Positions 15,651 to 35,571 are shown, counted from the stretch's first letter. The stretch is DNA of 40,277 nt from a virus (IMGVR_UViG_3300032278_004274:1-40277); one strand, 5' to 3'. Numbers and translations: made by a program. The notes: generated by a model from the letters alone, not told the origin.

Positions 15651-15668
15651 ATTTGAACCGGTTCCAAT
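15651..15668 (+). promoter_or_regulatory. late-promoter dyad upstream of lysis genes (Plys-like)
   Basis: ATTTGAAC-CG-GTTCCAAT is an imperfect dyad with one mismatch in eight-base arms. Its centre lies 103.5 bp before the endolysin ATG. Two more copies stand upstream of the protease and of the W-like gene. In Mu the late promoters Plys and PI precede the lysis genes and gene I, so I infer a Mor/C-type activator site. A run of alternating CG (15676-15687) follows. Confidence 0.7.
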
Positions 15669-15729
15669 GACCCCTCGCGCGCGCGCGGCCATCATCGCTG
15701 CGTGACGCACAAAGCGCCCATCGCGCCCT

Positions 15730-15760
15730 CTGCGTCTTGATCCACTACGGTAAGACGCAG
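15730..15760 (+). promoter_or_regulatory. hairpin directly before the endolysin start
   Basis: CTGCGTCTT (15730-15738) and AAGACGCAG (15752-15760) form a perfect 9-bp stem with a 13-base loop, ending two bases before the ATG at 15763. There is no ordinary ribosome binding site for that ATG. The structure may delay or limit endolysin synthesis, or protect the message end. Confidence 0.55.
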
Positions 15761-15762
15761 CT

Positions 15763-16323
15763 ATGGGAAATGAATCGATGAGCGCTTTCGAGCAAGCCTT
15801 CGCCAAACTGCTCGGCATCGAGGGCGGGTATTCCAACCACAAGAACGACACCGGCGGGGCCACGCGCTACGGCATCACCGAGGCCGTGGCGCGTGCGGAA
15901 GGCTATACCGGCCCAATGCCGCAGTTGCCGGTCGATATGGCCAAGGCCATCTATCGTCGGCGCTACTGGGACCTGCTGCGCCTAGACGACGTAGCCAAGC
16001 TATGCCCAGCGATTTCCGACAAGATGTTCGACATCGCCGTGAATATGGGCACGTCGATCGCCGGTACTTTCCTGCAGCGGTCGCTCAATGTGCTGAACCG
16101 CCAAGGTGTCGACTACGCGGACGTCATCGCTGACGGTGTGGTCGGTCCGAGGTCGATCAATGCCCTGTGCGCCTACTTCGCCAGGCGCGGGGAAAAAGCC
16201 GCCCCGGTCTTGCTGAAGGCTCTCAACAGCCTGCAAGGTGCGCGGTATATCGAGCTTGCGGAGCGGCGTCCGGCCAACGAAGACTTCGTCTTTGGGTGGC
16301 TGGACAATCGAGTGGGGGTGTAG
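15763..16323 (+). CDS. endolysin, glycoside hydrolase family 108
   Basis: This 186-residue enzyme is a muramidase-type lysin of the GH108 family with a C-terminal peptidoglycan-binding-3 part. The active-site region is EGGYSNHKNDTGGATRYGIT at about residues 20-39, with E20 the likely catalytic acid. FDIAVNMGTS and the GVVGPRSINAL segment belong to the second part. There is no signal peptide, so release into the periplasm should need the holin. The start is uncertain: the ATG at 15763 follows a hairpin and lacks a ribosome site, while the ATG at 15778 is preceded by GGGAA. It is the first gene of the late lysis block. Confidence 0.92.
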   Translation: MGNESMSAFEQAFAKLLGIEGGYSNHKNDTGGATRYGITEAVARAEGYTGPMPQLPVDMAKAIYRRRYWDLLRLDDVAKLCPAISDKMFDIAVNMGTSIAGTFLQRSLNVLNRQGVDYADVIADGVVGPRSINALCAYFARRGEKAAPVLLKALNSLQGARYIELAERRPANEDFVFGWLDNRVGV

Positions 16324-16324
16324 C

Positions 16325-16873
16325 GTGCCCCTGATTCCGATCGCCATGGCCCTGGCGCAGTTCGCGCCGGGCATCATCAAGCTGCTAACCGGGAGCGACA
16401 AGGCTGAAGCGGTAGCCGGCAAAGTCGTCGATATCGCCCGGACGGTCACGGGGACCGACACGCCCGAGGCCGCGTTGGCTGCCATCCAGGCAGACCCCAA
16501 CAAGATTCTCGAATTCCAGCAAGCATTCAACGCGCAACAGGCGGACATAGAGAAGGCGTACCTGGCCGATGTCGCCGATGCGCGCGCCCGTGACGTGGAG
16601 TTCATCAGGTCTGGCCGACACAACGTGCGCGCGGACCTGATGATCGTGCTGGATGCGCTGGGCCTGCTGGCCTGCGTGGCGGCGCTGTTCTTCTACCGGA
16701 ACGAGATGTCGGGCGAGGTGGTAGCGCTGCTGTCCACCATCGCATCGATCTTTGGCCTGTGCCTGCGCGATGCACACCAGTTCGAGTTTGGCAGCAGCCG
16801 CGGCTCGAAAGAGAAGGACGAAGTTCTCGCCACCTCACTCAAAACCTCCAGTGAGGCCAGGAAGCCGCGATGA
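16325..16873 (+). CDS. holin-like membrane protein (3TM type)
   Basis: This 182-residue protein starts with GTG one base after the endolysin stop; GGGGGTG lies just upstream. The N-terminal half is amphipathic and helical (FAPGIIKLLTGSDKAEAVAG), followed by RADLMIVLDALGLLACVAAL and VVALLSTIASIFGLCL, two clear transmembrane helices. The arrangement recalls the three-helix holin family first described from gene-transfer agents (PF11351), where a short helix precedes the spans. Its place between endolysin and DUF2730 supports a holin role. The C-terminus is charged and would be cytoplasmic. Confidence 0.75.
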   Translation: MPLIPIAMALAQFAPGIIKLLTGSDKAEAVAGKVVDIARTVTGTDTPEAALAAIQADPNKILEFQQAFNAQQADIEKAYLADVADARARDVEFIRSGRHNVRADLMIVLDALGLLACVAALFFYRNEMSGEVVALLSTIASIFGLCLRDAHQFEFGSSRGSKEKDEVLATSLKTSSEARKPR

Positions 16874-17223
16874 TGATCCAGCTTGAACTCTGGCACCTGA
16901 TCTCCCTGCTGGTGAGCTTTCTCGCTGCCATGGGCGCCTTTGGGCGCGTGCTGCTCGCCCAGTTCGAAAAGCGCATGGCTGACCGATTCGCGGCCCAGGA
17001 CCAACTGCGCAACGAACTCCACAAAGTCACGCTTCAAACCATCCAGTCGAGCGAGCAGTTGCTGCGCCAGCTCGAGCGCGACCACCTCAACCTCAAGGCC
17101 GAGTTGCCGCGCGAATACTGGCGGCGCGAAGACGCGATTCGCGAATACACGGTCATGCACGCGAAGCTGGACGCGCTGGCCGGCAAGATTGACTCGATCA
17201 ACAACAGGGGAGCGACGGCATGA
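16870..17223 (+). CDS. DUF2730-like protein (Mu gp25 type)
   Basis: This 117-residue protein has one N-terminal transmembrane helix (LELWHLISLLVSFLAAMGAF) followed by a long charged helix that probably forms a coiled coil (about 30-80). This is the layout of DUF2730 proteins, which occur in Mu-like phages between the lysis genes and the terminase (Mu gp25). The layout is also that of an i-spanin, and as no other spanin is visible, a spanin-like role is possible but unproven. Its ATG overlaps the previous stop as ATGA and its own stop overlaps the next start in the same way. Confidence 0.75.
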   Translation: MMIQLELWHLISLLVSFLAAMGAFGRVLLAQFEKRMADRFAAQDQLRNELHKVTLQTIQSSEQLLRQLERDHLNLKAELPREYWRREDAIREYTVMHAKLDALAGKIDSINNRGATA

Positions 17224-17537
17224 TCGACTTGGAAAAAGCCCGGCGTGAGACCTTGCGCTGGCGCATCCTGGTGGCGCTCAATGTGAGCCGGCCGGAGCCT
17301 GTCGACGAGGGCCTGCTGTTGTCCGTGCTGACGGATACCAAGTTGCAGGTGTCGACGCGCGAACTGCGCCGGGAGCTGGACTATCTTGCGGAGCGCGAAC
17401 TAGCGACCCTGCAGGGTAAGGACGGCCCGCTGTGGATGGCCGGCCTGACGCGTCATGGCGTCGACGTTGTCGAGTACACCGTCGAATGCCAGCCGGGTAT
17501 CGCGCGCCCGCCGAAGTATTGGGCTGGGGACAGGTAA
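17220..17537 (+). CDS. Mu gp26-like small winged-helix protein
   Basis: This 105-residue protein has the pattern of a winged helix: RWRILVALNVSRPEPVDEG, then LLLSVLTDTKLQVSTREL followed by RRELDYLAERELATLQGKDG as recognition helix and wing. It matches in size and position the gp26 protein found before the terminase small subunit of Mu-like phages. It may bind DNA, perhaps in packaging or regulation, but its function has not been established. It overlaps both neighbours by one to four bases, within the late block. Confidence 0.8.
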   Translation: MIDLEKARRETLRWRILVALNVSRPEPVDEGLLLSVLTDTKLQVSTRELRRELDYLAERELATLQGKDGPLWMAGLTRHGVDVVEYTVECQPGIARPPKYWAGDR

Positions 17538-18058
17538 TGCCGCCTCGCTCCAAGGTCGCCCGCCTGCCTCCGGCCGTCAAGGAATGGCTGGAAAGCGCGC
17601 TGCTGGAGAACAACTTCAGCAGCTACGAGTTGCTGGCCGCCGAGCTGCGTGCGCGTGGCTACGAAATCAGCAAGAGCGGACTGCAGCGCTTCGGAGCGGA
17701 TTTCGAAGAGCGGATCCGGGCGCTCAAGGTCGCAACGGAACAGGCGAAGGTCGTGGTGCGCGAGATGCCCGACGACGAAGGCGCGACCAACGAAGCCTTG
17801 CTGATGCTCACGCGCAGCAAGCTGTTCGAGGTCATGCTCGAGATGGAGGTGGACCCACAGAAGGTCGACCTGGCCAAGGTCACGCGCTCCATTGCAGATC
17901 TGGCCAAGGCGTCAATCGCACAGAAGCAGCACGCTCTGCAGGTGCGCGCCAAGGCCGAGGCCGCAGCCGACGCGGTGGAAAAGGTGGCCCGCCAGGGCGG
18001 CCTGTCGGCCAAAACGGTCGACGACATCCGGCGCCACATCCTAGGTATTGCCCAATGA
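17537..18058 (+). CDS. terminase small subunit (Mu gp27, DUF3486)
   Basis: This 173-residue protein belongs to the DUF3486 family, typified by Mu gp27, the small terminase component that recognises phage DNA for packaging. Visible features are the N-terminal SKVARLPPAVKEWLESALLE, the helix-turn-helix-like SSYELLAAELRARGYEISKS and LQRFGADFEERIRALK, and a long helical C-terminal region. The ATG shares a base with the previous stop (TAATG). The large subunit follows with an ATGA overlap, so the two are probably made in step. The frame stays open upstream of 17537 but only this start fits the coupling. Confidence 0.92.
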   Translation: MPPRSKVARLPPAVKEWLESALLENNFSSYELLAAELRARGYEISKSGLQRFGADFEERIRALKVATEQAKVVVREMPDDEGATNEALLMLTRSKLFEVMLEMEVDPQKVDLAKVTRSIADLAKASIAQKQHALQVRAKAEAAADAVEKVARQGGLSAKTVDDIRRHILGIAQ

Positions 18059-19590
18059 CGCACGTGACATCCGCACCGGCCGCGGCCAAGCCGGTGGCAC
18101 GTGCAGCTGCCGACGCCGCCCTGCGGGCTCCTGCGGTGTTGTTGCCCTATCAGCAGCGCTGGTGTGCCGACACGGCGCCGGTAAAAATCTGTGAGAAGTC
18201 ACGCCGTATCGGCCTGTCCTGGGCCGAGGCTGCCGATTCGGCGCTCATGGCCGCCAGCGACGCCGGCATGGACACGTGGTACGTTGGCTATAACAAGGAC
18301 ATGGCCCAGGAGTTCATCCTGGATTGCGCGGATTGGGCACGCTCCTACGGCATGGTGGCGGGTGAGATTGAGGAGACGGAAGAGGTTTTCGTTGAAGGCG
18401 ACGAGCGAAAGGCCATCCTGGCGTTCGTGATTCGTTTTGCATCGGGATTCCGCATTACCGCGCTGTCCTCGCGCCCGTCGAACCTGCGCGGCAAGCAAGG
18501 CCGCGTCATCATCGACGAAGCGGCTTTCCATGACCAACTGGGCGAGCTGCTCAAAGCAGCGATGGCGCTGCTGATCTGGGGCGGCCAGGTCCACATCATC
18601 TCCACGCACGACGGCGCGGATAACCCATTCGCCGAGCTGATCGAGGAATGCCGGGCCGGCAAGAAGCCATATTCCGTGCACCGGATCCCCTTTGTTCAGG
18701 CTTTGGCCGAAGGCCTGTATCAGCGTGTGTGCCTGAAGAAGGGCATCCCGTGGACTATCGAGGGCGAGCGTGCCTGGGCCAAGGAGATCCGGGACTTCTA
18801 TGGCGAAGACGCCGAGGAAGAACTCGATTGCGTGCCCAAGCGCGGCGGCGGCAAGTACCTGTCCATCGCCCTGATCGAATCGCGCATGTCGGCCGACACG
18901 ACGATCCTGGAGATATCGCGTAACGACGAGTTCGTGGTGCTGCCTGAGCATATCCGCATGGCCGATATCGCGGACTGGTGCAATGCGCAGCTGCTGCCCC
19001 TGCTGGCCAAGATTCCTTCGACGGTTCGCAGCTACTACGGCCAGGACTTCGGGCGCAGTGGCGACCTCTCGTCAGGCGTACCACTAATCCAGGCCAACGA
19101 CCTGGTTCGCCGGCTGCCGTTCCTGCTCGAGATGGCGAACATTCCCTTCGAGTGTCAGAAGCAGCTCGTCTTCTTCCTGTTGGATCGTCTGCCCAATTTG
19201 ATGGGTGCCGCATTTGATGCGACCGGCAACGGCGCGTATCTGGCCGAGGTAGCCATGCAGCGGTATGGCCGCAATCGGGTCGATGAAATCAAGTTGTCGC
19301 AGGACTGGTACATGCGCTGGATGCCCAAGCTCAAGGCCGGCCTCGAGGACGGCAACCTGGACGGCCTGCCCAAACACGACGGCGTGCGCGACGATCTGCG
19401 CGGTATCGAGAAGGTCAAGGGTATCCCGATGGTGGTGAGGCGCACCGCCGGCAAGGACAAACAGCAGCGCCATGGCGACTCGGCCGTCGCGCTTTGCCTG
19501 GCCAACTACGCCTCCTATGAACTCAACAAGGGGCCGGTGCGTGTCACGAGCCGGCCCCGCCGTGGCGGCGATATCGCACGCGGTTACTGA
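18055..19590 (+). CDS. terminase large subunit (Mu gp28-like)
   Basis: This 511-residue packaging motor has an N-terminal ATPase and C-terminal nuclease. The Walker A-like region is KSRRIGLSWAEA at about 49-60, of the modified type common in terminases, and Walker B is VIIDEA at about 151-156 with the catalytic glutamate at 155. WGGQVHIISTHDG fits the coupling motif III. The nuclease begins near residue 330 with YYGQDFGRSGDLS, where the aspartate would bind metal, and continues with FDATGNG. Mu-like phages use such a terminase for headful packaging from integrated DNA. The real start is the ATG overlapping the small-subunit stop; the frame stays open for 600 bp upstream without meaning. Confidence 0.93.
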   Translation: MTHVTSAPAAAKPVARAAADAALRAPAVLLPYQQRWCADTAPVKICEKSRRIGLSWAEAADSALMAASDAGMDTWYVGYNKDMAQEFILDCADWARSYGMVAGEIEETEEVFVEGDERKAILAFVIRFASGFRITALSSRPSNLRGKQGRVIIDEAAFHDQLGELLKAAMALLIWGGQVHIISTHDGADNPFAELIEECRAGKKPYSVHRIPFVQALAEGLYQRVCLKKGIPWTIEGERAWAKEIRDFYGEDAEEELDCVPKRGGGKYLSIALIESRMSADTTILEISRNDEFVVLPEHIRMADIADWCNAQLLPLLAKIPSTVRSYYGQDFGRSGDLSSGVPLIQANDLVRRLPFLLEMANIPFECQKQLVFFLLDRLPNLMGAAFDATGNGAYLAEVAMQRYGRNRVDEIKLSQDWYMRWMPKLKAGLEDGNLDGLPKHDGVRDDLRGIEKVKGIPMVVRRTAGKDKQQRHGDSAVALCLANYASYELNKGPVRVTSRPRRGGDIARGY

Positions 19591-19601
19591 AGGGGCATCC
19601 C

Positions 19602-21122
19602 ATGAACAACGGGCTGTACTTGCCGAACGGCACTTTCGTCCGCTTCTCCGAAGCCGACACGCGCGTCGCGCTGGCACGCGATATCGCCACGCGCGAACGC
19701 ATGAACCTGGGGATGCAGTGGTTCCTCCCCAACCCCGATACGGTGTTGCGCAAGCTCGGCCAGTCCATTCAGGTGTATCGCGACCTGACGAAAGATCCCG
19801 CGGTAGGAGGGCTCGTTCGCCGGCGTCGCTCAGCGGTGCTGCGCCTGGCACGCGGGCTGGACCCGGATTTCAAAGGCCCGGCGAGAGTTCGTAAGGACGT
19901 CGCTGCAATGCTGGGTAGCGTCAACGTGGCCCAGATCATCAGGCAGGCGCTGGCCGCTCCGCTGTACGGCTATCAGCCGATGGAAATCACGTGGGCGATC
20001 GAGGCCGGGCGCTATATGCCCAAGGCCGTTACGGCCAAGCCACCCGAGTGGTTTGCCTTTGACCAAGCCGGCCGGCTCGTTCTGCTGACGCCCAGCGCGC
20101 CGACCGGCGAGCAACTGCCACCCTACAAGTTCATTCTGGCCACGCAGGATGCCAGCTACGAGAATCCCTACGGCGAAGCGGACCTGGCCATGTGCTTCTG
20201 GCCGGTCGCTTTCAAACGAGGCGGCCTCAAATTCTGGGTCAAGTTCACCGAGAAATACGGCATGCCGATGGTTGTCGGCAAGCTACCGCGTGGCAGGGGC
20301 ACCGGCCACGATGCCGACGATCTGCTCGACAAGCTCGAGCAGATGGTCCAGGACGCTGTGGCGGTGATCCCGGACGATGCATCGGTCGATCTGAAAGAGG
20401 TCAAGAGTGGATCCGGCAACGCCGAGTTGTACGAGCGACTGCTGCTGTTCTGCCGTTCGGAGATCTCGATCGCCCTGACTGGAACGAATCAGACCACGGA
20501 GGCGAACAGCAATCGCGCCAGCGCTACCGCGGGCCTCGAGGTGGCGGACGATATTCGGGATGGCGACGCGGAAATTGCCGCGGCAGCAATCAATTCCCTG
20601 GTCAGGTACTACTGCGCGCTCAACCACGATATTCCCGAGGAGAATGTGCCGGTCTACCAGATCTGGGAGCCGGAAGACAAGGACGCGACGCGCGATCGCC
20701 AGGCGAAGCGTTCCCGGGACATGCGAGCCGCCGGCGCCCACTTCACGCCGCGCTACTTCGAGCGGGCTTTCGGCCTGGAGGCAGGCGACCTGGACGCAGC
20801 GCGGATGACGGCACCGTCGTCCGATCGCCTGCCTGCGGATCCGACGTTTGCAGAAAGTGCCCTGTCATACGAGGAGCAGGATGGCCTGGACATGGTCCTC
20901 GAGCAGCTCGCGGCGCAGACGATGCCGGGCGTCAGCGTTGCGATGCTCAAGCCTGTCCTGGACGCCCTGCGCGCAGGTGCCGACGCCAAGACCGCGCAGG
21001 CCATGCTGGTCCGCCTGCTGCCCGACATCGATACGGCGCTCCTGCAGCAGTCCCTCGCGCAGCTGCTGTTCGTCGCTGATGTCGTCGGCCGGCTCAGCGT
21101 GCAGACCGAGCTCACGGCATGA
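19602..21122 (+). CDS. portal protein (Mu gp29, DUF935)
   Basis: This 506-residue protein fits the DUF935 portal family of Mu-like phages, which forms the dodecameric ring at the head vertex through which DNA passes. Family signs are an N-terminal part with NPDTVLRKLGQSIQVYRDL, the LVRRRRSAVLRLARGL helix, the GYQPMEITW segment, and FWVKFTEKYGMPMVVGK in the centre. The last quarter is helical and may reach into the head. GGGG lies before the start at correct distance. It overlaps the next gene by four bases. Confidence 0.94.
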   Translation: MNNGLYLPNGTFVRFSEADTRVALARDIATRERMNLGMQWFLPNPDTVLRKLGQSIQVYRDLTKDPAVGGLVRRRRSAVLRLARGLDPDFKGPARVRKDVAAMLGSVNVAQIIRQALAAPLYGYQPMEITWAIEAGRYMPKAVTAKPPEWFAFDQAGRLVLLTPSAPTGEQLPPYKFILATQDASYENPYGEADLAMCFWPVAFKRGGLKFWVKFTEKYGMPMVVGKLPRGRGTGHDADDLLDKLEQMVQDAVAVIPDDASVDLKEVKSGSGNAELYERLLLFCRSEISIALTGTNQTTEANSNRASATAGLEVADDIRDGDAEIAAAAINSLVRYYCALNHDIPEENVPVYQIWEPEDKDATRDRQAKRSRDMRAAGAHFTPRYFERAFGLEAGDLDAARMTAPSSDRLPADPTFAESALSYEEQDGLDMVLEQLAAQTMPGVSVAMLKPVLDALRAGADAKTAQAMLVRLLPDIDTALLQQSLAQLLFVADVVGRLSVQTELTA

Positions 21123-21976
21123 GTGAGCAAGCTGACCCGCAGAGCATTACGGCTGCTGACGTCCGAGCGGTGTTCGGCCTTGAGCCGAAGGATGTGATCG
21201 CATATTTTCAGCGCAAAGGGTTCGCCATCACATGGAACTGGCAGGAGGTGTTGAACGAAGCGCATGCACATGCGTTCACGGTGGCCAAGGTGATGCAGCT
21301 CGATATCCTGCAGGATATCCATGACGCTCTGGACACCGCCATTCGGGATGCCCAGCCATACGTCCAGTTCGTCGACCAACTTGAGCCCATCTTGAAACGC
21401 AAAGGCTGGTGGGGCCGCAAGGAAGTTCTCGACGCCGATACGGGGGAGATCACGAGCGTGCAGCTCGGTAGCCCGCGCCGGCTGTGGACCATCTATCAGA
21501 CGAACATGCAGTCCGCCTATATGGCTGGGCGCTACAAGGCCATGATGGAGGCCACCGACACGCATCCCTATTGGCAGTACGTGGCGGTGATGGATGGGCG
21601 CACGCGGCCATCGCATCGCGCGCTCAATGGGCGCGTGTACCGCTTCGACGATCCGTTCTGGGCGACCTTCTATCCGCCATTGGGCTGGAACTGCCGCTGT
21701 CGCGTACGCCCAGTCTCTGAGGCGACACTGGCTCGCATGGACTTGAGGGCCCGCCAGTCCGGCTCTGAGCCCATCCGGGTGAAGAAGATCGAACTGCCGA
21801 GCGGCGACAAGGTTGCAGTGACTGCGTTCCGAACTGTCGACTCGAAGACGGGCAAGCGCATCGTGGTTCAGACGGACCCCGGCTTTTCCTTCAACCCCGG
21901 CCGCGCGGCGTGGGAGCCCGATGCCGGACGCTGGCGCGGCCCGATTGCCGATCTGGCGAAACAGACCTGGCAATGA
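21119..21976 (+). CDS. Mu F-like minor head protein (gp30)
   Basis: This 285-residue protein belongs to the phage Mu F-like/SPP1 gp7-type head morphogenesis family. The diagnostic C-terminal region is present: YVAVMDGRTRPSHRALNGRV and later FYPPLGWNCRCRVRPV, with the conserved cysteines and arginines. The N-terminal part is helical (QEVLNEAHAHAFTVAKVM). Such proteins are minor capsid components that assist portal and head assembly and may enter the cell with the DNA. ATGA overlaps connect it to the portal and to the next gene. Confidence 0.93.
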   Translation: MSEQADPQSITAADVRAVFGLEPKDVIAYFQRKGFAITWNWQEVLNEAHAHAFTVAKVMQLDILQDIHDALDTAIRDAQPYVQFVDQLEPILKRKGWWGRKEVLDADTGEITSVQLGSPRRLWTIYQTNMQSAYMAGRYKAMMEATDTHPYWQYVAVMDGRTRPSHRALNGRVYRFDDPFWATFYPPLGWNCRCRVRPVSEATLARMDLRARQSGSEPIRVKKIELPSGDKVAVTAFRTVDSKTGKRIVVQTDPGFSFNPGRAAWEPDAGRWRGPIADLAKQTWQ

Positions 21977-22446
21977 TCGAATTTCGCCTGAACACCGCCG
22001 ATCTCGACGCGGCCATGAATCGGCTCGCGAACATCGGGCTGCTTCATACGCTCACGCCCAAGCTTGCGGTCGAGTTGTTGTCGCTCACCGAGGAGAACTT
22101 CGAGACGGAAGGCCATGGAGACTGGGCGCCGTGGGCGGAGTCGACGAAGGCCGCACGACTCGCGCGATCGCCCAAGGGCGCTGGCAAGATCCTGCAGGAA
22201 TCGGGGCACCTGGCCCGCAGCGTGGTGACAGGACACGGCACAGACTATGCGGCGGTGGGCGTACCGTACAATGAAGAGGCGAAGAACTACGCCGCCATCC
22301 AGCAGCTGGGTGGCAACGCCGGGCGCGGCCACAGCGTGCATATCCTCGCTCGACCGTATTTGCCATTCACTGAGGACGGGTTGCTGCCGGAGGCGGAAGA
22401 CGCGCTCCTGGACCTGACCCTGACCTGGCTCATGCGCTCCATCTGA
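21973..22446 (+). CDS. virion morphogenesis protein (Mu G-like, gp31)
   Basis: This 157-residue protein matches the phage virion morphogenesis family that includes Mu gpG and P2 gpS, involved in tail completion or head-tail joining. Characteristic parts are FETEGHGDWAPWAESTKAAR, the KILQESGHLARSV strand, and HILARPYLPFTEDG near the end. The ATG at 21973 overlaps the F-like stop as ATGA; an upstream in-frame start was rejected for that reason. After it comes a gap with the PI-like dyad, so it ends one transcription block. Confidence 0.9.
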   Translation: MIEFRLNTADLDAAMNRLANIGLLHTLTPKLAVELLSLTEENFETEGHGDWAPWAESTKAARLARSPKGAGKILQESGHLARSVVTGHGTDYAAVGVPYNEEAKNYAAIQQLGGNAGRGHSVHILARPYLPFTEDGLLPEAEDALLDLTLTWLMRSI

Positions 22447-22606
22447 AGACAGCGTCGCTGTCGCCCGGGACGGCCCCGCTGCGGCCGATGTAGCAACTTC
22501 TTTCGGTGCAAGCATTGGCGGGATTTATAAACGCTTTACGCGGCCAATCGAATCCCATCCCACAGACGCATTCGCTGTCGCTGCCCAGGCAGTACCTCAA
22601 TGACGG

Positions 22607-22624
22607 TTTTGAACCCGTTCAAAT
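22607..22624 (+). promoter_or_regulatory. late-promoter dyad upstream of the protease (PI-like)
   Basis: TTTTGAAC-CC-GTTCAAAT is the best copy of the shared dyad (seven perfect pairs per arm). Its centre is 42.5 bp before the protease ATG. A 5-bp hairpin CCGCA-CAAGA-TGCGG (22641-22655) lies between them and ends two bases before the ATG, with no ribosome site. Mu has its late promoter PI at the corresponding place. The rest of the 22447-22657 gap shows only a weak hairpin (22448-22462). Confidence 0.75.
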
Positions 22625-22657
22625 GACACGTGTGAGCCCACCGCACAAGATGCGGCT

Positions 22658-23725
22658 ATGGCTACCAAACAAACCTATCGCGTTCATGCCCTCCGTGCCG
22701 GTCGTCACGTCGACGCTCGCGGTCGGGTCGTCGAGCTGAGTGCCGCCGACATTGCTGAGCTGGCCGAATCGTATGACCCGGCGCTGCATCGCGCGCCGCT
22801 CGTCAAGGGTCATCCGGAACACGACAAACCGTCCTATGGCGTCATCCAGGCAGCGGTCGCCGAGAACGGCCACCTGTTCGCCGAGGTGACGCCGGTCCCG
22901 GAGCTGGTGGACGACGTGCGCGAGCATCGCCTGCTCGGGGTTTCCGCCGCTCTGTATGGCCGCACCCATCCGCGCAATCCGACTCCCGGAAAGCTCCACC
23001 TGCGGCATCTGGGTTTTGTGGGCGCGGTGCCGCCCTCGGTCAAGGGCCTGGACGCGCCTCAGTTTGCCGAGGACGACGCCACCCACGAGGACTACTTCGA
23101 GTTTTCCGAGTCGGCGGCGCTTGGTACCACCGCCTACACCTTCGACATGGTCGCAGGGCTATTGCGCGGCTTGCGTGAACAGATCATCGCCGACAAGGGC
23201 GTGGAGGCGGCTGAGGCCGTCCTTCCAACCTGGCGCATCGAGGCGATCGTCACTTCTGCAGACGAGCTGCGCCGTCAACGAGACCACGAGATTGACGACG
23301 CGCCACAACCAATCTTCTCTGAGGACCCCATGACCGAAGCCGAAATCCGTGCTCTCCAGGAGCAGAACGCCAAGCTGACCGCTGAAAACGCGACGCTCAA
23401 GAAGTCAATCGCGGATGACAAGGATTTGCGCCTGCAGGCCGACCACGCGGCGTTCTGTGAGTCGCTGATCTCCGATCGTCGCCTGCTGCCACGCGACAAG
23501 GAAGGCACCCTGCAGATGCTGAACCACCTGGCGCGCACCAGCGATGGTGCCGAGTTTGGCGAAGGCGACGACAAGCAGTCGCCAGTCGATGCCTATAAAG
23601 CCTCGCTGCGCGCCCGCCTGCAGATCGACGACGCGCTCTTCTCGGAATCGGCCGGCCGCAGGCATCAGCCCGTCGACGAGAAGCACCCTCTGGTCGCCGA
23701 GGCTGAAGCCCGTGCCGCTCGCTGA
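22658..23725 (+). CDS. Mu I-like head maturation protease with scaffold domain
   Basis: This 355-residue protein corresponds to Mu gpI. The N-terminal 200 residues are the protease, with VKGHPEHDKPSYGVIQ, the LLGVSAALYGR segment that includes the serine expected as nucleophile, and LRHLGFVGAVPPSVKGL, all familiar in Mu-type head proteases. The C-terminal third, after about residue 225, is a coiled-coil scaffold (EIRALQEQNAKLTAENATLK) that organises capsid assembly and is then removed. An internal ATG at 23330 would produce the scaffold alone. It is the first gene after the PI-like dyad. Confidence 0.9.
   Translation: MATKQTYRVHALRAGRHVDARGRVVELSAADIAELAESYDPALHRAPLVKGHPEHDKPSYGVIQAAVAENGHLFAEVTPVPELVDDVREHRLLGVSAALYGRTHPRNPTPGKLHLRHLGFVGAVPPSVKGLDAPQFAEDDATHEDYFEFSESAALGTTAYTFDMVAGLLRGLREQIIADKGVEAAEAVLPTWRIEAIVTSADELRRQRDHEIDDAPQPIFSEDPMTEAEIRALQEQNAKLTAENATLKKSIADDKDLRLQADHAAFCESLISDRRLLPRDKEGTLQMLNHLARTSDGAEFGEGDDKQSPVDAYKASLRARLQIDDALFSESAGRRHQPVDEKHPLVAEAEARAAR
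23330..23725 (+). CDS. nested scaffold protein (Mu gpZ-like), internal start
   Basis: In frame inside the protease gene, the ATG at 23330 (residue 225) is preceded by GAGG with good spacing. The product of 131 residues is the coiled-coil scaffold plus its C-terminal capsid-binding helix. In Mu, gene I carries a nested gene Z with the same arrangement, as lambda does with C and Nu3. The start is supported by the ribosome site and the domain border, not by experiment. Confidence 0.65.
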   Translation: MTEAEIRALQEQNAKLTAENATLKKSIADDKDLRLQADHAAFCESLISDRRLLPRDKEGTLQMLNHLARTSDGAEFGEGDDKQSPVDAYKASLRARLQIDDALFSESAGRRHQPVDEKHPLVAEAEARAAR

Positions 23726-23764
23726 CGCGGGCGCACCTTTCCTTTCCCACCATCAGGACAGGCA

Positions 23765-24151: not shown

Positions 24152-24199
24152 ACGGCTCGCGGCCCCTCGCCAACTATCCCAAAACCTGGAGCGATCTCG

Positions 24200-25186: not shown

Positions 25187-25283
25187 GCGCGTCGGCGCCC
25201 CGATACACCTGTGAGGCGAGCAGTGACCCCGGACCGGCGCGGAAATGCGGCGCCGGCCGGGCCGGGCTCGTAGGAGGCGTTCC

Positions 25284-26486: not shown

Positions 26487-26525
26487 GCAGCGGGCATCGT
26501 ATCCCAACAGATAAGGAATCTCCTC

Positions 26526-27731: not shown

Positions 27732-27773
27732 CCATCGGCGACGCTCGCCAAGTACAGCGAAGGAGCTAGCAAC

Positions 27774-28295: not shown

Positions 28296-28310
28296 ACCGG
28301 CAGCTGCCGC

Positions 28311-28343
28311 GGTGCCGCACGGAGTCTGAGGTGCGGCACCTCA
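28311..28343 (+). repeat. two overlapping hairpins after the tube gene
   Basis: GGTGCCGCAC (28311-28320) pairs with GTGCGGCACC (28331-28340), a perfect 10-bp stem with a 10-base loop. TGAGGTGC (28327-28334) also pairs with GCACCTCA (28336-28343), so the two structures exclude one another. No T-run follows, so a plain intrinsic terminator is unlikely. Confidence 0.75.
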
Positions 28344-28395
28344 GATCGCAAGGCGCGCATCACGTGCCCCATTCACCGCTCCCAACAGGATTGTC

Positions 28396-29010: not shown

Positions 29011-29068
29011 ATACTGGGAGTTTGCCGAGGAGGCAAACGAGATCGTTAAGGCGCGATCGCGGCGCTGA
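28919..29068 (+). CDS. chaperone extension (E'-like), reached by frameshift
   Basis: This frame overlaps the end of the chaperone gene and encodes 49 residues from its ATG, MEEAQLRRLDRALMRLMRLT followed by WSEILLLPLSEYWEFAEEAN. The latter part fits GpE'-type extensions. It is offset +1 from the upstream gene, so a +1 or -2 shift is required, not the -1 of P2; Mu is reported to use -2. The run of six T at 28900-28905 followed by C (TTT TTT C) is a possible +1 slip site. Independent start at the ATG is an alternative but no good ribosome site precedes it. Confidence 0.7.
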   Translation: MEEAQLRRLDRALMRLMRLTWSEILLLPLSEYWEFAEEANEIVKARSRR

Positions 29069-29074
29069 TCGATG

Positions 29075-29302
29075 TCAGTCGCCGCGCCGAAGGAGTTCAC
29101 GCAAGCCGGCGACACCGTACCAGAGGAAGACGCACACAAATAGCATCACGGCGACGGGGAGCAGGCTGAGAATGGTGCCCATGGCCCAGGACAGCACGAG
29201 GCTCGCGAAGCCGGCTTCCGATTCGCCGAATCGCCAAGCGAACCACAGCCCGCCCAGGCAGGACGGGATCAACAACAGCTGAAAGACGAGCTTCTCGGTC
29301 AT
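29075..29302 (-). CDS. divergent two-helix membrane protein inside the tail operon
   Basis: This 75-residue frame runs against the late genes, in the only gap of the tail block that has no rightward gene (29069-29300). Its ATG overlaps that of the tape measure gene on the opposite strand by two bases. It predicts two transmembrane helices, about residues 3-22 and 33-65 (the latter with a long run of hydrophobics), and ends in a basic LRELLRRGD. Codon third positions are mostly G or C as in the neighbouring genes, which supports coding. No ribosome site or promoter is evident. It may be a moron, a gene expressed in the lysogen, but the family is unknown. Confidence 0.55.
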   Translation of the reverse strand: MTEKLVFQLLLIPSCLGGLWFAWRFGESEAGFASLVLSWAMGTILSLLPVAVMLFVCVFLWYGVAGLRELLRRGD

Positions 29303-32300
29303 GGACAAGTTGCTGACGGTCGGGTTGGTGATATCGGCGGCCACTGGTGCCGCGTCGCAGGCCCTGGGAAGACTGCGTAAAGACGCAGAAAGCCTCAATA
29401 AAAGCGTAGCGGCGATTGGCGCTGGGCGTCAAGCCATCGATCGGGTGGGGAAGCTGCGTGATGGGCTTGCCCAGGCGCAGGACCGCGCAGAGAAGACGCA
29501 CCTGGCTGCCCAGCGTATGGGCGAGAAGCTCACCACGGCCCAAGGCGCGGTGGGCCGGCTCTCCGGCAAGCTTGCCGACGCCAATGCTCAGGCGAAGCTG
29601 ACAGACAGCACTATCGCGCATACCGCTTCGGCGCTGCAGCTTTCACGCGATCGCGCCGAGTCACTTCGGCTACAACTGGCACTGGCTAAGGGTGCCGGTG
29701 CCGCTGGCGCGGCCGAGATGGGAAACCTGCGGCTCGGCATCGCCCGCGCTGGGAACGAGGCCGAGCGCCTTACCAAGGAACTTGACAAGGCCCGGCAACG
29801 CCAAGCGGCGACGCAAGCGGAGACGGAGCGTCTGCAGGCCGGGCTCACGCGTGCACAGGGCATCGCCGGGGGCCTTGCCAAGGAGGTCGGCGCGAGCGAG
29901 AACCGAAGCCGCGCAGCCCGACGGGAGCTGGACAACGTCGGTGCGAGCCTTTCGCGTGCCGAAGAGAATGCGCGACGGCTTGGCCTTCGTCTGGACGATA
30001 TCCAGCGAACAAGCCGCTCACTCGCCCAAATGGAACGCGCGGCGCAGCTACGCCAGTCGGGACGGCAGGACATCGAGCGCGGTCGACAGTTGCGCGCAGA
30101 AGCGAGGTCGGGCGTCGTCGAGACGGCTGCTGTGGGCTACTCGCTCCTCAAACCGGTTTCAGCGTTCGCGAAGTACGAGGACGCTGTCAAGAACATCGCC
30201 ATCACGGGCGAAATGAGCACTCAAGAGGAGGCATCGCTTGCGCGTGATATCCGGGGCAACGCGCTGCGCTATAACCAGCATCACGATGCTGTCGCCAAGG
30301 CCGTTGAGACGCTGGTGGCGGAAGGTATGGAAGGCGATGTTGCCGCTCGGCAATCTGGGCTGCTTGCAAAGACATCCACTGCCACCCGCGCCTCGCCTGA
30401 AGATCTCGCTCGCATGAATGTGAGCTTCCAGAAGGTGTTCGAAGTCTCGGACATGGAGAAGGCATTCAGTCAGGCCGCGAAAGCGGGCAAGCTCGGCTCC
30501 TTCGAGCTGCGCGACATGGCGAAATGGCTTCCCGAACTCGGTGCCTACTCCAAGGGCATCGGCCTCAAGGGAAACGAGGCTGTCGTCAGCCTCGCGGCGC
30601 GCCTGCAGGTTGCGAAGCTGGGGGCGGGCAGCAATGATGCCGGTGCCAACAACCTCAAGAACTTCCTCGCCAAGCTGACGTCGGTCGACACGCAAAAGGA
30701 CTTCAGCAAGCTTGACGTCGATCTGACCGGTGAACTGCGCAAGCAGGCGGCCTCCGGCAAAGACCCGATTACCGCCGGCATCGACATCATCTTGGCCCAG
30801 ATGCGCAAGGCCGCGCCAGCGGCCGCAGCGGAGATGAAGAAGATCGCCGACGATGTCGCGAAGATAGATGACCCTACCGAGCGCGCCGCGGAAATGGAAC
30901 GCCGGCGAGGCATGATCGAAGCACTCGGACAGCGTGCGGGCCTCGGCACCATGTTCCAGGACATGCAGGCTGTGTCGTACATCCTTGCCGAGATTCAGAA
31001 CCGTCCTAAGCTGACGGAGATTCTCGAGGAGGTCCGCACTGGCACGGGCAAGTCCGGCAAAGCTGTGATCGATGAAGACTTCGAGAAGCGTATGGCCGGC
31101 ACCTCGGAGAAGTTCAAGGCGCTCTCGATTGCTGCAACCGATCTGCTGATTAGCGTGGGCGGAGCGCTTGCGCCGACGGTAGTCGACCTGTCCGCCAGCT
31201 TGAAGTCGGCCACGGGTTGGGTTACTCGTATGAGCGATCAATATCCCCGCCTGGTGAGTGCGATCGGAACCACCGTGGGCGTGCTCATGGCGTTCTCCAT
31301 TGCGCGGATCGCCACGAAGTGGATTGCCGGCGGAGCGCTGTCAGCGATCGGTGCGGGCAAGGGGCTGCTCGGCTGGCTAACCGGCGCCAAAGCCGCGAAA
31401 GACATTCAGCGCGTCTACGTCGTCAACATGGGCGTAGGTGGTGGGCCGGATCTGGGTGGAGGTGGCGCTGATGGCCGCAGCGGTCGCCGGGGCCGGCTGC
31501 GTCGCGCAGGTGGCTCGCTAGGCCGTGGCCTCTCTCGTGCGGCTGGTGCGATGGGCGGCATTGGGCGTTCGGCCTTGTCCTTGCTCGGAAATAGCCCGGG
31601 CTTCTGGGCGGCGATGCGTGGTGCCGGCAAGATTCTCGCCCCGCTTGGTCTCGCAATGGCTGCGGGTGATGCTTTTAGTGCCGTGAGCGACCCAACGCTA
31701 TCGGCGCGCGAGCGACAGCGCGGCTTTGGCTCCGCTGCCGGGGGGTTCCTGGGAGGCCTAACAGGCGGCGCGCTTGCAGGGGCGGCGGCCGGCTCCATCG
31801 TGCCTGGCATCGGCACCGCTGTCGGGGGCGTTGTCGGTGGTCTCCTTGGCGCGGCAGGAGGTTCGCAAATTGGCGGCTGGCTGGCGTCTCAGATCGATAT
31901 TGGCAAAGTCAAAGAAACGTGGGTTTCGGCCAAGTCGGAGTTCCGGGAAGGGGTCTCCTACGTCAGAGGCCTGGTACCGGACTTTTCCCAGGCAGGCAGC
32001 GATATCATGGCCGGCCTCGCGCGCGGCATCGAGTCGGGCTTCGCGTGGGTGGACAGCGCTGTCTCCGGCATGGCCACTGCAATCGAGCGCCGCTTCAAGG
32101 GTCTCCTAGGCATCCAATCCCCTTCGCGCGTATTCGCAGAATTGGGTACGTTTGTCTCAGAAGGGGCGGCGCTAGGCATCCACACATCGAGCGGCATGGC
32201 CACGAATGCGGCCGCCGCGCTCGCAGCAGGGATCGTCGCCGCCGCATCGCCCGGGCAGAGCCTAGCCCAGCAATGGGCGAATAATGGCCTGCCAGCATGG

Positions 32301-32534
32301 GTGACGGCCGCTGCCGGTGGTGCTGGCGGTGCCGCGGCAGGCGGCGGTGGCCAGCCCCAGCCCTTGGTCATCACTTACGCCCCGCAGATCACTGTCGAAG
32401 CCGGTGCCGATGCGCAAGCTGTCGACGCGGCGGTTCATCGGGCGACGCGCTCGGCCTTTGCCGAGTTTGAGCGCCACTTCGACCGGCTCATGGCAGATCG
32501 TGGCCGGCGCAGCTACGACTACGGAGGCGCATGA
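29301..32534 (+). CDS. tape measure protein
   Basis: This 1077-residue protein sets the tail length. It begins MDKLLTVGLVISAATGAASQ as many tape measures do, then has a long coiled coil (about residues 25-270). A central PhageMin_Tail-type domain follows (about 290-600) with RDIRGNALRYNQHHDAVAKA and NNLKNFLAKLTSVDT. Further on are glycine-rich hydrophobic segments (about 650-860), including GGALAGAAAGSIVPGIGTAV, possibly used to cross the membrane during injection. Residues near 930-945 carry GIQSPSRVFAELG, common in this class. There is no good ribosome site before the ATG. Length fits a contractile tail of medium size. Confidence 0.95.
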   Translation: MDKLLTVGLVISAATGAASQALGRLRKDAESLNKSVAAIGAGRQAIDRVGKLRDGLAQAQDRAEKTHLAAQRMGEKLTTAQGAVGRLSGKLADANAQAKLTDSTIAHTASALQLSRDRAESLRLQLALAKGAGAAGAAEMGNLRLGIARAGNEAERLTKELDKARQRQAATQAETERLQAGLTRAQGIAGGLAKEVGASENRSRAARRELDNVGASLSRAEENARRLGLRLDDIQRTSRSLAQMERAAQLRQSGRQDIERGRQLRAEARSGVVETAAVGYSLLKPVSAFAKYEDAVKNIAITGEMSTQEEASLARDIRGNALRYNQHHDAVAKAVETLVAEGMEGDVAARQSGLLAKTSTATRASPEDLARMNVSFQKVFEVSDMEKAFSQAAKAGKLGSFELRDMAKWLPELGAYSKGIGLKGNEAVVSLAARLQVAKLGAGSNDAGANNLKNFLAKLTSVDTQKDFSKLDVDLTGELRKQAASGKDPITAGIDIILAQMRKAAPAAAAEMKKIADDVAKIDDPTERAAEMERRRGMIEALGQRAGLGTMFQDMQAVSYILAEIQNRPKLTEILEEVRTGTGKSGKAVIDEDFEKRMAGTSEKFKALSIAATDLLISVGGALAPTVVDLSASLKSATGWVTRMSDQYPRLVSAIGTTVGVLMAFSIARIATKWIAGGALSAIGAGKGLLGWLTGAKAAKDIQRVYVVNMGVGGGPDLGGGGADGRSGRRGRLRRAGGSLGRGLSRAAGAMGGIGRSALSLLGNSPGFWAAMRGAGKILAPLGLAMAAGDAFSAVSDPTLSARERQRGFGSAAGGFLGGLTGGALAGAAAGSIVPGIGTAVGGVVGGLLGAAGGSQIGGWLASQIDIGKVKETWVSAKSEFREGVSYVRGLVPDFSQAGSDIMAGLARGIESGFAWVDSAVSGMATAIERRFKGLLGIQSPSRVFAELGTFVSEGAALGIHTSSGMATNAAAALAAGIVAAASPGQSLAQQWANNGLPAWVTAAAGGAGGAAAGGGGQPQPLVITYAPQITVEAGADAQAVDAAVHRATRSAFAEFERHFDRLMADRGRRSYDYGGA

Positions 32535-33466
32535 TGTTCGCGGTGCTCGGCGATCTCGAGTTCGACACAATTGGCTGGCAGCCGCACAGCATTAAGCGGG
32601 GGGCGGATTGGGCCCAGCATCCGCTGATCAGCCGCAAGCCGCGGCTTGAGCGCGTCGCAGGCAAGCTCGACGAGCTGCAACTGCAGCTTGCTTTCCATCG
32701 GTACTTCGATGATCCCGCCTACCAGGCGCGGCGACTGCGCCAGTTGGTCGGCCAAGAGGTGCCTCTGCCGCTGGTGTTTGCGGACGGCGAGTATCTCGGG
32801 CGATTCATCGTCACGGACCTTGAGGAACGGCCGAAGGTGACACTACCCGACGGCGATGTGCTGGAAGCCGAATTTACCGTGTCGTTGCTCGAGTACGTCG
32901 GGGACGAACCGGCCCCAACGCCCGCGGCCGTTCGTGATCCACGCGCGCCGGTGCGCTCAGTCTACGAACTGTCCGGAGGTGGGCTCGGTGGGCTACTCAG
33001 TGGAATTCCGGGCGGCGCAGGCGGTTTTCCAGGGGGCAGCCTCCTAGGCAACCTGTCCAGCGCCGCCGCGAGCTATATGTCCGCCGCGCGCGGCGGCCTG
33101 GCAATGGCCAGCACGGCGCTGGATGCATTGAGGGCGGTTCAGAGCAGTCCGATTACGGCGATCGGCAAATTGATCAGTGTGGCGACGCCTCTCGCGCAAG
33201 CGGTGCCCGCACTCAGCGGACTCGGGGACACCCTTACGCAGGCGGCACCGTACCTGCAGGATGCCGCGCAGCTTGGACAGCAGGCCTACAACGCAGCTCG
33301 CAGCGCGAACGCAGCACTGAGTGCCGTGCGCTCAGGTGGCCTTGGTGGGCTGGTCAGTCGAATCGATACGGCAACAGGTATTGTCAGCAGCGTGGACAGC
33401 GCGCTGGGGGCACTGCGCAAGCCCGTAGCCAAGATGGCGCTTTCCTCAGTGCTACGTTTGCAATAA
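32531..33466 (+). CDS. P2 U-like tail protein with C-terminal extension
   Basis: The N-terminal 135 residues of this 311-residue protein fit P2 gpU, a tail completion component: FAVLGDLEFDTIGWQPHSIK, PRLERVAGKLDELQLQLAFH, and the ADGEYLGRFIVTDLEERPKV strand. The remaining 175 residues are Ala/Gly/Leu-rich and helical (residues about 170-310), an extension frequently seen in U-like proteins of Burkholderiales phages. The ATG overlaps the tape measure stop (ATGATG). GGAGG is located three bases before the first ATG and six before the second, so the start may be 32534. Confidence 0.88.
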   Translation: MMFAVLGDLEFDTIGWQPHSIKRGADWAQHPLISRKPRLERVAGKLDELQLQLAFHRYFDDPAYQARRLRQLVGQEVPLPLVFADGEYLGRFIVTDLEERPKVTLPDGDVLEAEFTVSLLEYVGDEPAPTPAAVRDPRAPVRSVYELSGGGLGGLLSGIPGGAGGFPGGSLLGNLSSAAASYMSAARGGLAMASTALDALRAVQSSPITAIGKLISVATPLAQAVPALSGLGDTLTQAAPYLQDAAQLGQQAYNAARSANAALSAVRSGGLGGLVSRIDTATGIVSSVDSALGALRKPVAKMALSSVLRLQ

Positions 33467-33469
33467 GCC

Positions 33470-33688
33470 ATGGCCGACGAATTCATCGAACATGTGACGA
33501 TTGACGGCGAGCGATGGGACCAACTCGCTGCGCGCTACTACGGCGATGCAAGCGCCTTTGGCCGCATCATCGACGTTAACCCGCACGTGCCGATTGGCCC
33601 AACGCTCGTGGGCGGCGTATGGCTGCGCATCCCTATCATTGACCTCGTCACCGCCACACCTGACCTGGAGTTGCCACCATGGCTGTAG
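33470..33688 (+). CDS. P2 X-like tail protein (LysM-like)
   Basis: This 72-residue protein corresponds to P2 gpX. It has the LysM-like sequence GERWDQLAARYYGDAS, then IIDVNPHVPIGPTLVGG and VWLRIP, which is the standard pattern. It is considered a baseplate hub or tail tube end component. It overlaps the start of the gpD-like gene by ten bases and follows the U-like gene after three bases. Product lacks any membrane feature. Confidence 0.93.
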   Translation: MADEFIEHVTIDGERWDQLAARYYGDASAFGRIIDVNPHVPIGPTLVGGVWLRIPIIDLVTATPDLELPPWL

Positions 33689-34710
33689 AGGAACCCAAGA
33701 GCCTGCAGCAGGCCATCCCGCGCTTCCAGTACGCGCTTGTCATGCGCGGCAAGGACGTAACAGCGGCGTTGGATCCATACGTCACACGCATCGAATTCCG
33801 GGACAACATCGAAGGTGAGTCTGATCAGCTCGATATCGACGTCGAAGACGTGGACGGACGCTGGCGCGAAGCCTGGTATCCGTCGAAGGGGGATGCCCTC
33901 CTGCTCTCACTCGGGCGGCGGGCCGAGCCGATGATCACTCTGGCCACCACCGAGATCGACGAGATCCGCTTCCGTGGTCCGCCATCGACGGTGTCGGTGC
34001 GCGCACTGTCCACCGGCATCAACGGCGGGTATCGCACCCGGGAGCCTCGGCCGTTCGAAAACATGACGCTCAAGCAAATTGCGCAGCACGTTGCGCGTCG
34101 CCGCAAGCTTACTCTGGTCGGCACGATCCGCGACATTCGCATCGACCGCGTCACCCAGTACCACGAGCGGGACGTGGAGTTCCTCGCGCGGCTCGCCCGC
34201 GAGTATGGCTATGCGTTCAAGATCACCGGCGGAAAGCTGGTGTTTCATGCGCTTGACGCCATGCGTGAGCAGGCCGGTATCCTGACCCTCACCGAAGCTG
34301 ATCTGAGCGACTACGAGTTCTCGGACCAGATCAAGGATGTCGCCAGCTCGGTTGAGTCGAGATACCATGACCCGCGCAAGAAGCGGCTCATCCGCCGGCG
34401 GCACAAAGCGGAAGGAGTGGGGGCCAGCACTGACACATTGCGCCTGCGCACCCGTGCGGGAACACCGGACATGGCACGGCACCGGACCGAAGCGGCTCTG
34501 GCCCGAGCCAATGATGATCGACTGGCAGGATCGCTTAGTCTGCGGGGCAACCCCCGCCTTGTCTCCGGCGCAAGTTTCACCCTCGAAGGGATGGGTAAGC
34601 TCGACGGCACGTGGCTGATCCGGGCCGCCGTCCATCGCATTACGCGCCAGACCGGGTACGCCACGAACCTCCAGGTGAGGCAAACCAAGCCGGCACGGAG
34701 GCAGTCATGA
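33679..34710 (+). CDS. P2 D-like baseplate hub / late control protein
   Basis: This 343-residue protein is of the P2 gpD/Mu gp44 hub family, which forms a ring between the tail tube and the spike. Family parts are SDQLDIDVEDVDGRWREAWY, the LSLGRRAEPMITLATTEIDE strand with the GPPSTVSVRALSTGI segment, and QYHERDVEFLARLAREYGYA in the middle. The C-terminal domain contains LVSGASFTLEGMGKLDGTWL. Its stop overlaps the gpV-like ATG by four bases. It is a structural protein despite the name late control D used for the P2 family. Confidence 0.93.
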   Translation: MAVEEPKSLQQAIPRFQYALVMRGKDVTAALDPYVTRIEFRDNIEGESDQLDIDVEDVDGRWREAWYPSKGDALLLSLGRRAEPMITLATTEIDEIRFRGPPSTVSVRALSTGINGGYRTREPRPFENMTLKQIAQHVARRRKLTLVGTIRDIRIDRVTQYHERDVEFLARLAREYGYAFKITGGKLVFHALDAMREQAGILTLTEADLSDYEFSDQIKDVASSVESRYHDPRKKRLIRRRHKAEGVGASTDTLRLRTRAGTPDMARHRTEAALARANDDRLAGSLSLRGNPRLVSGASFTLEGMGKLDGTWLIRAAVHRITRQTGYATNLQVRQTKPARRQS

Positions 34711-35339
34711 GTCGCGGCCCGAATACCCATAACGAAACCGGCGTTTCCCGCCAGGTCGGGACAGTGTCCGATATTGACGAGCGGGCCGGGCGCGTGCGCG
34801 TGCGCTTGCCGGAGTATGGCAATCTGCGATCGCCCTGGTTGGACGTCCTGCAGCGCAAGACGCAGGACGACAAGGACTACTGGATGCCGGATATCGGCGA
34901 ACAGGTTGCCGTGCTCCTGGACCTGTCCGGCGACGAAGGCTGGGTGCTGGGTGCCCTGTACTCGGAAGTGGACCAACCGCCGGTGGCGAGCCGCGACAAA
35001 TGGCACAGGCGCTTCAAAGATGGGGCAATGATCGAGTACGATCGGGCGGAGCATGCCTTCCGCCTTGAGTTGCCGGCTGGCGGCAAGGTTCTGATTGTCG
35101 CCCCAACCGGCGTATTGGTGCAAACCGACGAGGCTACACTTGACGCTAAGACTACCGTTTGTAAGGGAGACCTTGTCGTCGAAGGCAGGCTGACTTACCT
35201 TGGCGGCATGAGCGGAAAGCCTGGGCCCGGCGGCGGCAAGGCGGCCGACATTGAGGGCGACATTGGGGTGAATGGCAATATGGATGTCAGCGGTACGGTG
35301 ATGGATGGCGGTGGCAACAGCAACCATCATCGGCACTAG
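34707..35339 (+). CDS. baseplate spike protein (P2 V-like)
   Basis: This 210-residue protein is the central spike, of the gpV/Mu gp45 family. The N-terminal OB-fold has VSDIDERAGRVRVRLPEYGN, the middle YWMPDIGEQVAVLLDLSGDE, and the C-terminal third is a beta-helix-like run of short repeats leading to a glycine-rich end. The last residues NHHRH offer histidines that could bind the metal ion found at the tip of such spikes. The start at 34707 overlaps the D-like stop; the frame is open upstream without being coding. An intrinsic terminator follows immediately. Confidence 0.93.
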   Translation: MSRGPNTHNETGVSRQVGTVSDIDERAGRVRVRLPEYGNLRSPWLDVLQRKTQDDKDYWMPDIGEQVAVLLDLSGDEGWVLGALYSEVDQPPVASRDKWHRRFKDGAMIEYDRAEHAFRLELPAGGKVLIVAPTGVLVQTDEATLDAKTTVCKGDLVVEGRLTYLGGMSGKPGPGGGKAADIEGDIGVNGNMDVSGTVMDGGGNSNHHRH

Positions 35340-35341
35340 AA

Positions 35342-35372
35342 AAAGGCCCATATCCGGGAGATATGGGCCTTT
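35342..35372 (+). terminator. intrinsic terminator after the spike gene
   Basis: AAAGGCCCATATC (35342-35354) and GATATGGGCCTTT (35360-35372) form a perfect 13-bp stem with a CGGGA loop; the right arm ends in TTT. It lies two bases after the spike stop codon. It should stop most rightward transcription, so that the following block needs its own promoter. Confidence 0.85.
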
Positions 35373-35520
35373 CCTGCCACTTTATTGCTCTACCACTTCC
35401 TCTACCTGCGTTGCGCTTTCAGCAACGAGGAAATTCTAAGTTGTGAAGGCGTCGTGCGCCCCCCCGCTGAGGTTGGGGTCGGCTGTCATGGCAGCGTCAT
35501 TCTTAGCGCGGACGCGGTTG

Positions 35521-35538
35521 TTTTGAACCCGTTCAATG
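35521..35538 (+). promoter_or_regulatory. late-promoter dyad upstream of the W-like gene (PP-like)
   Basis: TTTTGAAC-CC-GTTCAATG carries the perfect inner dyad TTGAAC-CC-GTTCAA. Its centre is 42.5 bp before the W-like ATG at 35572, the same distance as at the protease. It is located between a strong terminator and the baseplate block, in the 232-bp gap 35340-35571. A hairpin GCGCTC-GCAG-GAGCGC (35540-35555) follows. The remainder of the gap shows nothing I can name. Confidence 0.75.
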
Positions 35539-35571
35539 GGCGCTCGCAGGAGCGCTCTTTACCATGGCCGT

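Follow-up and report, generated by a model that had tools for sequence, protein, structure and literature searches.

The window analysed here is the virus record IMGVR_UViG_3300032278_004274, a stretch of 40,277 bases with 62% GC from a Mu-like transposable phage. Its leftward genes, from about 10.6 kb, encode a transposase, a DNA transposition protein, a GemA-like protein and a Mor-like protein, and its rightward genes encode the lysis, head, contractile-tail and baseplate proteins. Three related dyads stand in front of the lysis genes, the head protease gene I and the W-like baseplate gene, at the putative late promoters Plys, PI and PW. Our analysis suggests, with a probability of roughly 0.83, that these dyads are the operators of a single Mor/C-family activator at the three promoters, and that the mRNAs of I and W are leaderless. 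Leaderless mRNAs, such as that of lambda cI transcribed from PRM, carry their start codon at +1 and are devoid of a Shine-Dalgarno sequence.

The dyads are located on the plus strand at 15651..15668 (Plys, ATTTGAACCGGTTCCAAT), 22607..22624 (PI, TTTTGAACCCGTTCAAAT) and 35521..35538 (PW, TTTTGAACCCGTTCAATG). The initial annotation had placed them correctly, but its rendering of all three as ATTTGAAC-NN-GTTCAAAT overstated their identity: the exact pattern is present in none of them, and they depart from it by one, one and three mismatches, respectively. What they have in common is the motif TTGAAC-N2-GTTC(A/C)A. A perfect 14-bp core TTGAACNNGTTCAA is present at 22607 and 35521, and one with a single mismatch at 15651; the remaining matches to this core in the window all have two or three mismatches. 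Three such sites are far above chance, as 0 are expected in dinucleotide shuffles. A motif scan of the window gave no fourth copy, as had been noted on first reading; a candidate GAAC-N2-GTTC at 39353, just 5' of a gene, was rejected, with three mismatches to the core and a distance of only about 8 bp to the ATG. When both strands were scanned for geometry, requiring a dyad of at least 6/7 pairs and NANNNT at +30.5, ten sites were obtained, namely the three dyads and seven with unrelated sequences. The genes behind the dyads are those proposed initially: an endolysin gene (phrog_315), a head maturation protease gene (phrog_976) and a gp25/W-like baseplate gene (phrog_43). The intergenic position of the dyads also holds provided that W begins at 35572, the start favoured by homology; a longer W open reading frame from 35536 would overlap the third dyad.

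A -10-like hexamer is found at exactly +30.5 bp from the dyad centre at all three sites: CATCAT at 15690..15695 for Plys, with a predicted start at about 15702, CAAGAT at 22646..22651 for PI, and TACCAT at 35560..35565 for PW, all on the plus strand and each having A as its second base and ending in AT. This spacing places the dyad centre at -42.5 in the usual numbering, so that the feature of Mor- and C-dependent promoters, a dyad near -43 before the -10 element, is present at 3/3 sites. In Mu, the -35 element is replaced by a 16-bp element, with its centre at -43.5, to which the Mor dimer binds (PMC4390567). In the window, -35-like matches with 17-bp spacers are ATGACC (4/6) at Plys, ATGACA (5/6) at PI and TGGGCG (3/6) at PW; the one at PI (22623..22628, plus strand) abuts the dyad.

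The proposed reader of the dyads is encoded on the minus strand at 916..1290. This protein matches PF08765 (E=6.9e-36) and the late transcriptional activator family phrog_532 (E=1.1e-33), and its residues 14-118 cover positions 3-107 of the 107 in the PF08765 profile, including the C-terminal helix-turn-helix. It is related to the solved Mu structures of C (9l0x, E=1.1e-6) and Mor (1rr7, E=9.4e-6), and a GemA-like gene (1283..1753, minus strand; phrog_286, E=1e-47; annotated as GemA in relatives) adjoins it, as in Mu. Exactly one PF08765 gene is present in the window, in agreement with the initial annotation. Among 40 relative records, a PF08765 match was found in 36, above the cut-off in 31, and nearly always once per phage; the exceptions are two records with two adjacent pieces (G014 and G034) and a whole bacterial genome with three genes (G007). 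The two-step cascade of Mu has no counterpart in the window, which contains one PF08765 gene and, in the scan, no dyad near that gene. That one protein may replace Mor followed by C is consistent with the lone family member of the window and with the single one of almost all relative records, and the single-activator cascade is usual for this phage group and no peculiarity of the window.

The covariation of dyad and activator points to the same protein. Over 28 phages, the distance between dyads correlates with that between Mor proteins (r=0.66, Mantel), and the correlation persists when the gene-I protein distance is removed (partial r=0.61, p=2e-4), whereas dyad and gene I correlate weakly once Mor is controlled for (r=0.18, p=0.08). 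Over 21 phages, the dyad gives r=0.68 against Mor, compared with 0.13 and 0.24 for upstream and spacer DNA of equal length. Since the dyad sequence tracks Mor far better than the flanking DNA does, Mor is the likely reader. By eye, the recognition helix SLQ(W/F)(I/V)Y accompanies TTTAAA-type dyad arms, the helix T(A/E)RG(L/I) shared by the Mor proteins of the window and phiSHP3 accompanies the arms TTTGAAC and TGTGAAC, and a divergent Mor group has GCGGAA arms and a spacing of +32.5; an example dyad from another group is TTTAAACCCGATTAAAA. Analogous sites are present at matching gene boundaries in B3, JBD25, phiSHP3, Komp_PAO1_1 and PhiKM. Together with the -10 spacing and the covariation, they support the proposal of Mor-type activator sites at late promoters, and the dyad is very probably the docking site by which one activator switches on all three late blocks.

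The sequence of the dyad is narrowly distributed. A search of all viral contigs for the exact dyad with its ATG spacing gave 27 matches, among which the only transposable phage with the match at a late boundary was a twin contig of the window; the others were chance-like. This dyad sequence is therefore peculiar to the phage of the window. A single scan of a genome collection yielded six distant relatives, and the dyad of the window was found in none of them.

The ATG codons of I and W each lie 42.5 bp from the dyad centre, which is exactly the predicted +1. This dyad-to-start-codon spacing, absent from the initial annotation, is the most informative feature. For gene I (22658..23725, plus strand; phrog_976), the ATG at 22658 is the sole possible start in frame at the 5' end of the gene. 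The frame of W (35572..35958, plus strand; phrog_43) has an additional upstream ATG at 35536, inside the dyad. In the alignment with the W proteins of Komp_PAO1_1 and PhiKM, the homologous part begins near residue 6-13 of the shorter form, and both phages have their annotated W start at, or 1 nucleotide from, the equivalent spot relative to their own promoters. In 65 non-redundant gene-I upstream regions anchored at the ATG, strong dyad symmetry peaks at -45.5 to -42.5, where it is seen in 34% of the phages, while the other bins have 0-11% and the shuffles 2%. A free search for dyad and hexamer at gene I placed the predicted start at 0 to -2 in 27/35 phages and at -17 to -29 in the other 8/35, with none of the 35 between -3 and -16. 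At W, a promoter independent of that of gene I, the predicted start is exactly 0 in 21 of 31 non-redundant relatives and within -2 to +1 in 23 of them, whereas shuffled upstream regions gave 0.11 on average and two at most. A Shine-Dalgarno motif occurs in 1/33 relatives with a leaderless gene I, versus 4/10 of those with leaders; the window has no such match at I or W (-1.1 and -1.5 kcal/mol, respectively), and position -1 is a pyrimidine in 27/27. The late mRNAs of I and W are thus probably leaderless, with the AUG as first nucleotide, and the recurrence of the spacing implies that such a predicted arrangement is common to many related phages.

An inverted repeat, CCGCA-CAAGA-TGCGG (22641..22655, plus strand), ends 2 nucleotides before the ATG of gene I. 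Its stem, CCGCA/TGCGG, is modest in the window (-5.6 kcal/mol). A repeat of this kind precedes most gene-I starts, with the 3' arm at the ATG, and its arms vary among phages yet keep their complementarity: with the GGCGGC type left out, at least 5 bp can form in 24/44, compared with 4.5 on average and 10 at most when arms are exchanged between phages. In the leaderless phages the loop usually contains the -10 hexamer, and in those with leaders the 5' arm ends, with one exception, no more than about 5 nucleotides upstream of the predicted start. In 36/36 stems with 5 bp or more, the 5' arm lies outside the predicted transcript of the promoter itself. Only read-through RNA from the upstream operon should be able to fold the repeat. 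The start-codon structure of T4 gene e likewise forms in long transcripts, while a late promoter inside its 5' strand gives proper transcripts without the structure (PMC3014915). The defining feature of that system, a start-codon helix with its 5' strand upstream of the transcript start, is seen relative to the predicted start in all 36 cases and is accompanied by covariation, and we give a T4 gene-e-like block on read-through at gene I about an even chance.

Other hairpins were found near the late promoters. A strong inverted repeat at 15731-15759 on the plus strand (TGCGTCTT...AAGACGCA, -11.8 kcal/mol as RNA) lies 3 nucleotides 5' of the first in-frame ATG of the endolysin gene; being inside the predicted Plys transcript, it falls outside the read-through model and was rejected as a block of this type. 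Between the V-like gene and W, a strong terminator-like hairpin is present at 35343..35371 on the plus strand (the fold of 35330-35385 has -25.5 kcal/mol). At the W promoter of Komp_PAO1_1 (17429-17480), a hairpin with a short T run behind it (GCCAGGTTCGCCTGGCTTTCT) stands between the dyad and the -10 element, and may be another means of stopping read-through.

Several points weigh against this interpretation of the dyads, start codons and repeat. The -10 hexamers agree with TATAAT in no more than 3-4 of the 6 positions, and since A at position 2 and T at position 6 were demanded by the search, their conservation was discarded as evidence. The dyad centres behind the correlations were placed by a program in 16/21 phages and by judgement in 5/21, and by judgement in all 28 of the other set; moreover, the relatives are phylogenetically linked, so that the counts overstate their independence. 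By the automatic rule, 31/66 gene-I regions have no confident dyad, some of them because the dyads are imperfect. Finally, Plys is not leaderless, and the W promoter of the window is devoid of an inverted repeat like that of gene I.

Other explanations can be given for each part. The dyads could be the operators of a different regulator, such as a LexA-like host protein, a CI-type repressor of the phage or another early protein, with Mor acting elsewhere. GAAC-N2-GTTC is a generic palindrome, and many dimeric regulators bind sites of this kind; a gene for a CI-type helix-turn-helix protein (13604-14143) is likewise present in the window, and our covariation test covered Mor as the only regulator. 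However, a conserved host regulator would not be expected to have a dyad that differs among phages and follows Mor after the gene-I distance is removed, and a centre at -42.5 beside a weak -10 element is the position of an activator and not that of a typical repressor operator; we regard this explanation as highly unlikely. An improbable alternative for the fixed distance between dyad and ATG is that transcription starts farther upstream, or that a G/C-rich stretch serves as an unusual ribosome site with a short leader. GGCGGC or GGGCGC directly before the ATG is indeed frequent in the relatives and partly resembles a Shine-Dalgarno sequence, but a normal ribosome site would have to lie farther from the ATG than the 0-2 nucleotides at which this stretch ends. 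The spacing is also constant to 1-2 nucleotides over two genes and many phages, and other relatives combine an equal spacing between dyad and -10 with leaders of 17-29 nucleotides, some with a real Shine-Dalgarno sequence, with no intermediates. Both I and W of the window also lack a Shine-Dalgarno match.

With regard to the repeat at gene I, it might act in the DNA, as a hairpin or GC clamp around the -10 element that tunes promoter melting, and not in read-through RNA. The finding that the loop in leaderless phages is the -10 hexamer itself (GATCAT, GACACT, CACTAT) would suit such a role. In the phages with leaders, however, the -10 element lies outside the loop while the 3' arm is still at the ATG, and the 5' arm is mostly within 5 nucleotides upstream of the predicted start, both as the RNA model predicts; in addition, the -10 element of W is equally near its ATG, yet most phages have no repeat there. 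An action in the DNA thus appears doubtful, if by no means far-fetched.

We propose the following sequence of events for the operators of a single Mor-type activator. The early operon would be transcribed leftward and end in mor, and the Mor-type dimer would then bind the three dyads, whose centres lie at -42.5, and bring the sigma-70 polymerase of the host to the weak -10 elements. Transcription would thereby pass from early to late directly, without a separate C, and the lysis, head and baseplate blocks would be transcribed rightward. Translation would start at 5'-AUG ends for I and W, and behind an ordinary leader for the lysis genes; the leader before the endolysin gene (15763..16323, plus strand; phrog_315), the first of the lysis block, is predicted to have about 61 nucleotides, or 76 if the endolysin starts at 15778. 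The repeat at PI would fold solely in read-through RNA from Plys, so that gene I would not be translated from the wrong transcript; this block is the least certain step. More generally, B3/BcepMu-type phages may gate translation by the transcript of origin, through late mRNAs that a single Mor-type activator starts exactly at the AUG and through a covarying hairpin or, as at W, a terminator against read-through, so that each block would be translatable solely from its own activated promoter, a proposal for which we consider the odds to be balanced.

The arrangement resembles the Mor/Pm and C/Plys-PI-PP-Pmom systems of Mu, with a PF08765 activator, a dyad near -43 and a sigma-70 promoter with weak elements (PMC4390567, PMC4461284), and in both phages one late block begins with the lysis genes and another with the protease gene. 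Mu, however, uses Mor and then C, where the phage of the window has one protein; the dyad sequence is different, and the third site stands before W and not before P. No mom site was found in the window. Gene I of Mu has a leader with an AGGA-type site, unlike the predicted leaderless I here, and when Mu PI was checked for an equal geometry, no clear dyad at +30.5 was found, with a similar hairpin present at the PI leader. Closer likeness is seen in the Pseudomonas phages B3, JBD25 and Komp_PAO1_1, the Stenotrophomonas phage phiSHP3 and the Escherichia phage PhiKM, all of which have one Mor gene, a -10 element at +30.5 and repeated dyads before the lysis, I and tail or baseplate blocks, each phage with a dyad sequence of its own. 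In several of them the predicted start of I or W coincides with the ATG or lies close to it, and in PhiKM and Komp_PAO1_1 gene I has a leader and W has none. B3 and JBD25 have three copies each, the third standing before the tape measure gene, and phiSHP3 has two. Komp_PAO1_1 has four, before the lysis genes, I, a tail gene and W; the additional site lies between the tail tube and tape measure genes, where the window, unlike Komp_PAO1_1, has no dyad. Compared with T4 gene e, the gene gated here encodes a head protease and has a Mor-type promoter, and many of the transcripts are predicted to be leaderless, the effect being itself a prediction. Compared with leaderless mRNAs of the lambda cI type, those proposed here would serve essential late structural genes under an activator.

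Some further observations concern the records themselves. The annotated start of the B3 protease lies 30 nucleotides upstream of the leaderless ATG predicted from its dyad and -10 element (19857-19887). In the Komp_PAO1_1 record, a minus-strand hypothetical protein is annotated at 5112-7241, across gene I, which gives a clear tblastn match at about 5190-6293 on the plus strand. Two short IMG/VR contigs of the bacterial genome 2590828102 have Mor and baseplate genes 100% identical to those of the window. Among the early genes of the window is one for a full-length HU-type DNA-binding protein (5065-5337, minus strand; PF00216, E=1.9e-34), and the last open reading frame (39816-40277, plus strand), which is truncated where the record ends, matches phrog_1128, an enoyl-CoA hydratase/carnitine racemase-like family of the moron category.

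Our literature search gave no account of these sites or of leaderless late mRNAs in this phage group; as older papers were incompletely covered, the novelty is provisional. Most worthy of further attention are the predicted leaderless architecture and the putative read-through hairpin. The start codons of W in the window and of gene I in B3 can be corrected, the latter to the predicted leaderless ATG. With dozens of natural pairs of activator and site, the DNA-recognition code of the Mor/C family becomes readable and testable. Our findings predict that, in a widespread group of phages, essential head and baseplate genes are expressed from late mRNAs that are leaderless and depend on the activator, and the read-through hairpin, if true, would extend the type of control known from T4 gene e to the transposable phages.

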